Shown piece by piece: positions 2,317-5,114 of a DNA stretch of 5,114 bases; the stretch's first letter is position 1; each line of letters begins with the position of its first letter. A program made the position numbers and the translations under genes. The stretch spans positions 1 to 5,114 of the forward strand of contig JAAZEW010000264.1 in NCBI GenBank assembly GCA_012512055.1, given 5' to 3'. Source of the stretch: Bacillota bacterium (lineage in GTDB: Bacteria > Bacillota_G > SHA-98 > UBA4971). The notes under the pieces were generated by a model. That model had not been told where the DNA came from. It made no database searches and worked only from the letters and a program-made list of their open reading frames with translations.

Positions 2317-4260
2317 CTACGTTACACCCTCAATACTGCTTGACACAGACGATTGTTGCACCTCGCAGGCCACACTTACAGCGCCTCTGGGCTTACACAG
2401 CCTGAGTGCAGCTTCTGCAATACCCACAGGCGACAATCCGCATTTATCAAGTAGGATCTCACGCGGGCCGTGTGTCACAAAGTCGTCAGGTATACCCAAA
2501 TGGGCGAACTCCACCTTTCCCTGAGCCTTCCTGGAAATGATATCTGCGACCTCGTTGCCCAGGCCTCCGACAACGCTCGCCTCTTCAACTACAAGCAGCC
2601 TCCTGCATTTCCTTGAAATCTCCAGGATCTGAGGCTCGTCCACCGGTTTCGCAAACCTGGCATTGAAGACAGCCGCAGATAAGCCTTCCCTCCTTAAGAT
2701 TGCCGCTGCGTCCAGCGAAGGGTACACCATGCTTCCCAAAGCAATTATCGCCACGTCTTTGCCATCCTCAAGAAGCACGCCTTTACCATATTCAATAGGC
2801 GGACATGTCCTCCTTCCCGCCTTATCCATGGCAGACGCGCGAGGGTACCTGAATGCGCAAGGCCCCTCCATGTTCAAAGCGAAGTCCAGCATAGAGACGA
2901 GCTCATCTTCATCTATAGGCGCCATGACTGTCATACCGGGAATGCTTCTTAAGAACGCAATATCAAGATTCCCGTGGTGTGTAGGGCCATCCTCGCCTAC
3001 AAGCCCCGCCCTGTCCACGGCAAAAACCACATGAAGGCCGGGAAGGGCAATGTCATGAACAATCTGATCATAAGCCCTCTGCAGAAACGTGGAGTAGACA
3101 GCCACCACGGGAATAAAACCCTGGCTTGCCAAGCCCCCTGCCATCGTCACTGCATGCTGCTCCGCAATACCCACGTCAAAGAAGCGGTTAGGATATGCTT
3201 TCATAAATGCGCTGAGGCCTGTACCATCAGGCATCGCAGCAGTAATGGCAATAATGCGAGGATCCTTGGACGCCGCTTTTACCACAGCCTCACCAAATAT
3301 CGCAGATAGGCTCTTAGAATTGCCGGATGAAAGCATCCTGCCTGACGGCACATGGAACTTGCCTACCCCGTGAAAAGCCCTGGGGTCCGCCTCTGCCGGA
3401 GGATATCCCTTGCCTTTCTTGGTGACCACATGGATCAACACAGGTCCGCCTTTGGCTCTGGCTTGCTGAATTGTGCGAATAAGGAGTGGGATGTCATGTC
3501 CGTCAAGCGGCCCTAAGTAAGTGAAACCTAAGTCCTCAAAAAGCATGCTGGGGATGACTAGATACTTTAAGCTGCCTTTGAGCTTCCTTACGCTCTCAGA
3601 CACATCTTTTCCGATGATTGGGATGCTCCGGATGATCCTCTCTAACTCGCGGCGGGCACTCAAAAGATGAGGCTCTGTCCTAATGCGAGAAAGGTAGGAC
3701 GCAAGGCCTCCCACATTCCGGGAAATAGACATTTCGTTGTCGTTCAACACAACAATAATGTCTGTGCCGAGTTGCCCTGCATGGTTCAGGGCCTCAAATG
3801 CCATCCCCCCGGTAAAGGATCCGTCTCCGATCACTGCGAGAACACTGTAGTCTCCATTTCTCAGATCTCTGGCTTTGGCAATACCGAGAGCTGCAGATAT
3901 TGAAGTGCTGGAGTGTCCCGTATTATACACGTCATGAGGGCTTTCGTCCGTTCTCGGAAAACCGCTGATGCCGCCGTACTGCCTGAGAGACGAGAATTCG
4001 CTGAGCCTTCCCGTAAGGATTTTATGGGCATATGCCTGGTGGCCCACATCCCATATCACTTTATCATTGGGACTTGCAAGAACAGTATGAATGCTCAAGG
4101 CGAGTTCCACCACTCCGAGGCTGGAAGCCAGATGGCCACCGGTCTCCGAAACAGTGTTTATGATTTCCTCCCTGATTTCACCTGCAACTTGCTGAAGCTG
4201 GCCCAGTGTAAGGTGTTTGAGCCCTTCGGGCAGATCCAACGCATCAAGAAGTCTTGCCAC
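2317..4260 (-). CDS. dxs: 1-deoxy-D-xylulose-5-phosphate synthase
   Basis: DXS condenses pyruvate and glyceraldehyde 3-phosphate to DXP, using thiamine diphosphate; it is the first step of the MEP isoprenoid pathway and also feeds thiamine and pyridoxal synthesis. From the GTG at 4260 the protein is 647 residues. Motifs: GGHLASSLGVVEL at 41-53, DVGHQAYAHKIL at 71-82, GHSSTSISAALG at 115-126, the thiamine-diphosphate motif GDGSFTGG...NDN at 145-175, EDLGFTYLGPLDGHD at 242-256, FDVGIAEQHAV at 361-371 with catalytic Glu367, and DRAGLVGEDGPTHHG at 416-430. The frame is open to an ATG at 4362, but that adds 34 atypical residues over the end of the upstream membrane-protein gene. The GTG start has AAGGAG 9 nt upstream and yields the standard opening (ARLLDALDLPEGLKHL). 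The two genes overlap by 17 nt. A Ser-rich tail of about 25 residues at the C-terminus is longer than usual. Confidence 0.97.
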   Translation of the reverse strand: MARLLDALDLPEGLKHLTLGQLQQVAGEIREEIINTVSETGGHLASSLGVVELALSIHTVLASPNDKVIWDVGHQAYAHKILTGRLSEFSSLRQYGGISGFPRTDESPHDVYNTGHSSTSISAALGIAKARDLRNGDYSVLAVIGDGSFTGGMAFEALNHAGQLGTDIIVVLNDNEMSISRNVGGLASYLSRIRTEPHLLSARRELERIIRSIPIIGKDVSESVRKLKGSLKYLVIPSMLFEDLGFTYLGPLDGHDIPLLIRTIQQARAKGGPVLIHVVTKKGKGYPPAEADPRAFHGVGKFHVPSGRMLSSGNSKSLSAIFGEAVVKAASKDPRIIAITAAMPDGTGLSAFMKAYPNRFFDVGIAEQHAVTMAGGLASQGFIPVVAVYSTFLQRAYDQIVHDIALPGLHVVFAVDRAGLVGEDGPTHHGNLDIAFLRSIPGMTVMAPIDEDELVSMLDFALNMEGPCAFRYPRASAMDKAGRRTCPPIEYGKGVLLEDGKDVAIIALGSMVYPSLDAAAILRREGLSAAVFNARFAKPVDEPQILEISRKCRRLLVVEEASVVGGLGNEVADIISRKAQGKVEFAHLGIPDDFVTHGPREILLDKCGLSPVGIAEAALRLCKPRGAVSVACEVQQSSVSSSIEGVT

Positions 4261-4879
4261 TATTCGAGTCTCCTTCAGCATACTTCTTTGCCGGGCAAAG
4301 ATTCTTCTTTCTGTTCGAAGCTTTCGGGTCAGGCAGGATAACAAGGCCTGTCGAGCCTTCAAGCCAGGCCAGGACTTTACCTACGGCAAGAATGATCTGC
4401 TCCGGTTCGCTGATGGCAACGTTCTTTCCCCACGCCTTGCCACCGACTGTGAGAGCTGCAATGAATCCCACGATAACCGTACTTGCCACTGTCTCGCCGG
4501 CAGGGCTTCGCCCCGCCGGCATCACCAGTTCAAGGGCAATTGCGGCTCCTATCGCGCCGCTGACAGTACCTGTCATATCACCGATGATGTCATTGCAGAA
4601 GCTCGCCACACGGTCAGCAGATCTTGTCATACGAAGAGCCTGCTTCGCCCCGTATACTTTCTTCGAAGCCATGGCATTCAATGGCCGTTCTTTCGCTGCT
4701 GTGACAGCAGTGCCGATTACGTCAAAAATGACACCGATGCCAACTATTAAAAGCAAAACAAAAAGTCCAAGAATCAACCCCACGCGGCCAAGGAGTATCT
4801 TGGACACAAAACTTACGGATATGGCCATGACAAATGTGACAATTGCTACATAAAGGACCCGTGACACACGTGGGTTCAC
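4244..4879 (-). CDS. oapA: Probable OLE-associated membrane protein OapA
   Basis: A 211-residue integral membrane protein. Hydrophobic segments lie at about residues 8-29, 33-55, 103-120 and 131-147. The central stretch 60-155 (GAKQALRMTRSADRVASFCNDI, a Gly/Ala-rich helix, then GFIAALTVGGKAWGKNVAI) resembles the CNNM/DUF21 transmembrane domain of magnesium/cobalt transporters, which has a matching order of residues (GAK-ALRLL-DPDR, then a helix, then FGEI-PK). No CBS domains follow. The C-terminus (186-211) is hydrophilic and rich in Lys/Arg. OapA binds OLE RNA at the membrane in Bacillus halodurans and is encoded between that RNA and dxs, as here. The identity rests on that position, length and topology. 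The start is GTG, with AAGGTGG 9 nt upstream; the 3' end overlaps dxs by 17 nt. If the RNA is not OLE, this is an unassigned CNNM-like membrane protein. Confidence 0.82.
   Translation of the reverse strand: MNPRVSRVLYVAIVTFVMAISVSFVSKILLGRVGLILGLFVLLLIVGIGVIFDVIGTAVTAAKERPLNAMASKKVYGAKQALRMTRSADRVASFCNDIIGDMTGTVSGAIGAAIALELVMPAGRSPAGETVASTVIVGFIAALTVGGKAWGKNVAISEPEQIILAVGKVLAWLEGSTGLVILPDPKASNRKKNLCPAKKYAEGDSNSGKTS
4270..4275 (-). promoter_or_regulatory. Ribosome binding site that decides the dxs start
   Basis: AAGGAG on the minus strand lies 9 nt before the GTG at 4260. It is inside the 3' end of the upstream membrane-protein gene, which fits coupled translation. The in-frame ATGs at 4281 and 4362 lack a comparable site. 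Confidence 0.8.
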
Positions 4880-4885
4880 GAGCTA

Positions 4886-4916
4886 CACCCACCTTAATAA
4901 CGTATCCGGGTAGGTG
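4886..4916 (-). promoter_or_regulatory. Hairpin able to mask the oapA ribosome binding site
   Basis: On the minus strand CACCTACC (plus 4909-4916) can pair with GGTGGGTG (plus 4886-4893): 8 bp with one G-U pair around a 15-nt loop. The 3' arm contains most of the AAGGTGG ribosome binding site (4889-4895) of the GTG start at 4879, so the folded form would hide it. No T-run follows, so it is not an intrinsic terminator. The pairing is seen; the control role is inferred. Confidence 0.4.
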
Positions 4917-4920
4917 GTAA

Positions 4921-5114
4921 CATTATGGGTAAATATTGTGGCTTGAGGTCCGGCAGGTTTTCCCTGTAGTGCTCCCTTGCGTCACCACTTGGGCGGTTTC
5001 CCGTTTACGACTACAGCCCGAGGTTGCCCTTAGGACGGCCGGACTACCACTTAGCTCACACTACAATCCCCGTAATGTCCCTTTGATCCTTGGACAGTCT
5101 AGGAGTTTTCCTCA
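4921..5114 (-). ncRNA. ole: Probable OLE RNA, 3' portion (continues past the window edge)
   Basis: No reading frame is supported here; instead the minus strand folds into a nested structure. CATTACGGG (5069-5077) pairs with CCCATAATG (4921-4929) with one mismatch. A 13-nt helix follows (5055-5067 with 4935-4947; ten Watson-Crick pairs, one G-U, two mismatches). GTCCGGC (5038-5044) then pairs perfectly with GCCGGAC (4948-4954), leaving a 10-nt bulge on the 5' side. Inside are a perfect 7-bp helix CTGTAGT/ACTACAG (5010-5016 with 4964-4970) and hairpins AGG-GCAA-CCT (5021-5030) and CGG-GAAA-CCG (4994-5003). The GNRA loops exist only on the minus strand, which fixes the orientation. Its place directly before a four-helix membrane protein and dxs-tlyA-nadK-argR-recN is the known OLE locus. 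OLE RNA is usually about 600 nt, forms a membrane RNA-protein complex with OapA, and affects tolerance of short-chain alcohols, cold and magnesium stress. The family call is not backed by an alignment; the 3' limit is approximate. Confidence 0.75.

Follow-up and report, generated by a model that had tools for sequence, protein, structure and literature searches.

OLE RNA is a large non-coding RNA known from many Gram-positive bacteria. It can dimerize, is located at the membrane and binds the proteins OapA, OapB, OapC and probably bS21 (PMC9723947, PMC12265935, PMC11332333, PMC12054373, PMC12286853; for these papers, here and below, as far as their accessible text goes). The same papers describe a need for OLE under cold, alcohol, Mg2+ and carbon-source stress and leave the biochemical activity of the OLE ribonucleoprotein (RNP) unsettled. 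The genes ole and oapA are nearly always found in tandem, and the OLE consensus has already been built on 904 unique representatives (PMC9723947). The OapA protein carries a distinctive DxxxD motif (PMC11332333). Here we have analysed a stretch of 5,114 nucleotides from a Bacillota bacterium, most likely an uncultured one (contig JAAZEW010000264.1), referred to as the window at its full length. We consider it practically certain that an OLE RNA, a member of this already known family, lies with its last third at the right edge of the window and is followed by oapA and dxs. The copy is partial and ordinary for its family.

The covariance model of the Rfam OLE family (RF01071; gathering cut-off of 50 bits) matched the edge of the window with an E value of 1e-43:

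4898..5114, minus strand: OLE RNA, 3' part (RF01071, 159.4 bits, model positions 403-616 of 616)

The 5' side of the match ends at the window edge. An earlier note, made from the letters alone, had proposed a probable OLE RNA at 4921..5114, and the proposal is borne out by a score of this size even on 217 nt. The RNA does lie on the minus strand, but the interval needs widening to 4898, and its right side is cut by the window. The note had also described the region as free of reading frames; indeed, no open reading frame (ORF) of at least 60 aa overlaps 4921-5114 on either strand, open ends included, the nearest one stops at 4879, and no coding gene runs through the region. Four matches to other Rfam families in the window scored 16.6-19.2 bits, far under their thresholds, and were taken as chance.

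Complete copies of the RNA were found in relatives. The scan of genome contigs for OapA returned ten loci (L001-L010), all but L009 from records with a Bacillota, Firmicutes or Clostridia label, and a full-length OLE (462-499 bits, 568-640 nt) lay directly upstream of oapA in all ten. Over the part seen in the window, the copy was 88-97% identical to L001-L007 and 57-62% identical to L008-L010. It also retained the conserved blocks of the OLE 3' part in an alignment of 17 sequences, and the OLE RNAs of the relatives carry conserved 5' blocks. Within the order that includes L001, the genome search revealed OLE in all genomes searched (13/13; seven of these genomes had already been picked through OapA and six were independent), which points to an OLE-bearing clade of uncultured Bacillota. 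One full OLE-oapA locus, L009 (JAGUZX010000087.1), was located in a metagenome-assembled genome labelled Desulfovibrio. Since its OLE aligns like that of the Bacillota loci L008 and L010, mis-binning or mislabelling is likely and transfer a less likely alternative.

The Rfam structure and the letters of the sequence place the following elements in the 3' domain:

4919..5079, minus strand: three stacked helices closing the 3' domain (5079-5069/4929-4919, 5060-5056/4941-4937 and 5043-5038/4954-4949)
4964..5016, minus strand: arm with a perfect 7-bp helix (5016-5010/4970-4964), enclosing a GUGA-capped hairpin (4993-4974)
5016..5036, minus strand: GCAA-capped hairpin in the Rfam register; base 5016 may alternatively join the 7-bp helix

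Six pairs of the 7-bp helix agree with the Rfam register; base 5016 has another partner there. The GNRA loops, GCAA (5027-5024) and GUGA (4985-4982), exist on the minus strand, with TTGC and TCAC in their place on the plus strand, and both apical loops were GNRA in 17/17 sequences, with the letters varying at the free positions. The three stacked helices, the perfect 7-bp helix and the minus-strand-only GNRA hairpins of the earlier note are all present.

Covariation was scored on the 17-sequence alignment of the 3' part (the window, L001-L010 and L018-L023, with L011-L017 omitted as repeats). The Rfam pairs formed in 80.8% of 915 cells, and two-sided changes occurred in 24 of the 54 pairs of the 3' domain and in 71/915 cells, counts in which a single inherited change is counted repeatedly, the sequences being kin. 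None of 500 shuffles reached the pairing fraction, the number of pairs or cells with two-sided changes, or the covariation score, and sliding the partners by 1-3 columns lowered pairing to 37-41%. The stacked helix 5079-5069/4929-4919 was paired in 94.7% of cells, with two-sided changes in 7/11 pairs; the corresponding values were 80.0% and 1/5 for 5060-5056/4941-4937, 100% and 2/6 for 5043-5038/4954-4949, and 80.9% and 6/8 for the GCAA-capped hairpin. The 7-bp helix and the GUGA-hairpin helix, in the Rfam register, were paired in 63.9% and 66.0% of cells, respectively. The compensatory changes in homologous loci that the earlier note had named as a check are therefore there to be seen.

Several observations weigh against the assignment. 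Just 214 of the 616 model positions lie inside the window, and domain 1, with P3-P9, the A-rich loop of P4, the dimer contacts and the k-turn for OapC, falls outside. The pair-type count was equalled by 46/500 shuffles. In the Rfam register, helices 2, 7 and 8 were paired in just 64-66% of cells, and the pairs 5056/4941, 5009/4971, 5008/4972 and 4994/4973 formed in 0/17 sequences. The minus-strand fold (-61.1 kcal/mol, z -1.09) was matched or exceeded in stability by 24/200 shuffles, and the NCBIfam search gave no match for the OapA protein encoded alongside. Because three helices pair poorly and four pairs never form, the Rfam register is not accurate throughout for the clade of the window and may have to be adjusted there. 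On the plus strand the fold had a z of -0.31, with 66/200 shuffles as stable, and folding energy, not significant on either strand, was dropped as evidence for an RNA. The minimum free energy being unremarkable, shape by itself is weak evidence: the helices of the long folded rod put forward in the earlier note are real by the model and by covariation, but its single-sequence energy is not exceptional. What stands above chance here is the covariance-model score together with the covariation, not the folding energy.

The ends of the RNA could be followed in the relatives. In 16/16 full-length relatives, TATAAT stands a short way ahead of the OLE 5' end, and in L001 (4316-4344) it is preceded by a TTGATG at a distance of 17 bases (a single such site, against 0.5 expected). 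The two ends of OLE, 5' and 3', pair as an 11-bp helix, with 175/176 cells paired and 15 two-sided changes in the same 16 relatives. For these 11 positions, which were picked after the sequences were seen, the shuffles (n=1000) gave means of 162.0 paired cells and 3.5 two-sided changes, and none was as high. The window holds one side of the helix:

4908..4918, minus strand: 3' arm of the terminal helix (the 5' arm would fall outside the window)

In the current Rfam OLE model both RNA ends are unpaired, and this covarying helix could be added to RF01071. It is probably the published P1, since the names P2 (PMC9723947), P3 (PMC12286853) and P4 are used in print and the first helix of the Rfam model appears to be P4. 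A statement identifying the terminal helix as P1 was not found in the accessible text of the OLE papers.

The genes oapA and dxs were identified beside the RNA:

4244..4879, minus strand: oapA, OLE-associated membrane protein A, 211 aa, GTG start (PF01595 CNNM, 32.2 bits; DxxxD at residues 97-101)
2317..4281, minus strand: dxs, 1-deoxy-D-xylulose-5-phosphate synthase (TIGR00204, 767.5 bits, cut-off 465.95; inferred start at 4281)

CNNM (cut-off of 28.4 bits) was the sole Pfam domain matched in the window OapA, and D97 and D101 were invariant in 12 aligned OapA sequences, namely the window copy, three from the loci and 8 taken from the 184 proteins found. When OapA was compared by sequence with solved structures, nothing matched at E 0.1. 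The dxs start as placed above and the end of oapA share 38 bases (4244-4281), an overlap that suggests translational coupling. Downstream of dxs, on the same strand, are genes for a TlyA-type methyltransferase, an NAD kinase and ArgR. In L001 (Firmicutes bacterium UBA4981, 92% OapA identity), nusB, xseA, xseB and an FPP-synthase-like gene, which by its place is ispA, precede OLE; in B. halodurans, ole is presumably flanked by ispA and dxs. The earlier note was right in recognising the gene order of the OLE home, with oapA and dxs alongside.

On their common strand, 18 nt separate the OLE match from the start codon of oapA, whose ribosome-binding region is also a potential pairing partner for the 3' arm of the terminal helix. 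A reading in which the closing helix of OLE also acts, in this order, as a switch that lets OapA be made only with an intact OLE seems to us very unlikely. With such a switch, the 3' arm of a complete OLE would pair with the 5' end and leave the oapA ribosome-binding region free; were the 5' part missing or processed, the arm would sit on that region and oapA would be silenced. The arm and the window's own oapA leader gave -14.1 kcal/mol, and the L001 terminal helix -22.6. Among 59 leaders (ORFs of at least 150 aa, L001-L007), three argR-like ones scored -14.3 and three oapA ones -14.1, with a median of -7.1 kcal/mol; the other four oapA leaders were not entered as such, because every frame was begun at its first start codon. 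The window's own argR leader gave -11.6 kcal/mol with the arm, which looks like an anti-Shine-Dalgarno sequence. An exact complement to the oapA ribosome-binding region, 6 nt long in L001-L004, L006 and the window and 5 nt long in L005 and L018-L023, is absent from L007, where G-U pairs still permit the pairing. Pairing of that kind was not found in L008-L010, the three more distant relatives. In local minimum-energy folds the switch hairpin was clear for L002, L007 and the window and not for several others (e.g., L001, L003, L004 and L006). The low probability that we assign to the switch reflects the similar scores of the argR-like leaders and the lack of the pairing in L008-L010.

The same junction bears on whether the RNA is a cis-regulatory, riboswitch-like leader of oapA-dxs instead of a free-standing RNA, which we judge very unlikely. 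The 18-nt spacing on one strand and the capacity of the arm to pair with the oapA ribosome-binding region would suit a leader, as would the fact that a terminator-like site was not found in L001 4150-5050 (OLE and the oapA start). However, the alternative pairing is unspecific, three argR-like leaders scoring as well as oapA, though the argR leader of the window does not, and it was not found in 3/3 more distant relatives. That the window holds a degenerate or truncated remnant instead of a working gene is extremely improbable: just the 3' third is visible and the 5' part would be past the window edge, but the match is cut exactly where the window ends, the 3' part is 88-97% identical to that of seven relatives with complete OLE genes, its conserved blocks are kept and the oapA alongside is intact.

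For the free-standing, working OLE RNA that we prefer, the OLE literature points to a mode of action in which OLE would be transcribed both as part of the operon and from a promoter that it has to itself, would form a membrane-bound RNP with OapA, OapB and OapC, and would aid in coping with Mg2+, cold, alcohol and carbon-source stress. We think it more likely that this RNP scaffolds or regulates the membrane protein OapA than that it acts as a ribozyme.

The presence of OapB and OapC, which commonly but not always accompany OLE in a genome, was assessed in the genomes of relatives only. The KOW protein encoded between map and infA in L032 matched the solved OapB 7k9b with an E value of 9.3e-9, L14e proteins being far weaker, and relatives of this OapB-like copy were located before infA in 13/13 genomes tested. 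NCBIfam gave one weak L14e match for the OapB-like protein of L032 and none for that of L034. An L7Ae/OapC-family gene was detected in 10/10 relatives. Less favourably, 5/10 of these alignments run through a stop codon; the one gene inspected has an intact 102-aa frame between rpoC and rpsL (gene names read from translations), an interval that we take to be the YbxF/OapC position.

Matches to CNNM with an E value of at most 0.001 were found once each in 12 of 16 genomes of relatives (G001-G016), all beside ole, and this search detected no CNNM protein other than OapA in the 16 genomes. In 14 control genomes, CNNM was matched in 12 and CorC_HlyC, a domain of MpfA-type transporters, in 11. According to PMC11332333, OLE-OapA and MpfA are anticorrelated, with the idea that each can replace the other, and the CNNM/CorC_HlyC pattern of the 16 genomes fits this anticorrelation. 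Since the CNNM search matched only OapA, this protein probably substitutes for MpfA, a CNNM transporter of Mg2+. Speaking against such a replacement, the CNNM cut-off was passed in just 2/16 genomes, 4/16 gave no match despite having OLE, and weak CorC_HlyC matches occurred in 3/16 (G011, G012 and G014), one of them at the cut-off. Because four OLE genomes lack a match, the CNNM model misses some OapA and could miss a distant MpfA.

Compared with known systems, the window copy is like OLE RNA (RF01071) in its sequence, its 3'-domain helices, its GNRA loops and its site directly upstream of oapA, and the protein partners are likewise found in relatives; no essential difference was found. The earlier note expected a new representative to help refine the conserved core, and here its value is modest, because the 904-representative consensus exists (PMC9723947) and the window has only the 3' third. 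In length, the OLE of the seven closest relatives is 625-640 nt vs. 577 nt in C. acetobutylicum (PMC12286853). The window OapA resembles described OapA as a small membrane protein encoded beside ole, with a weak CNNM match and DxxxD, and its C-terminal tail is 12 to 34 residues longer than those of the Bacillota homologues P0027, P0033, P0043, P0059, P0090, P0100 and P0117. It has a CNNM-like transmembrane domain in common with the CNNM Mg2+ transporters of the MpfA/CorB type but, unlike these, is a protein of 211 aa in which Pfam matched the CNNM domain only and which has the DxxxD that is absent from CNNM domains (PMC11332333).
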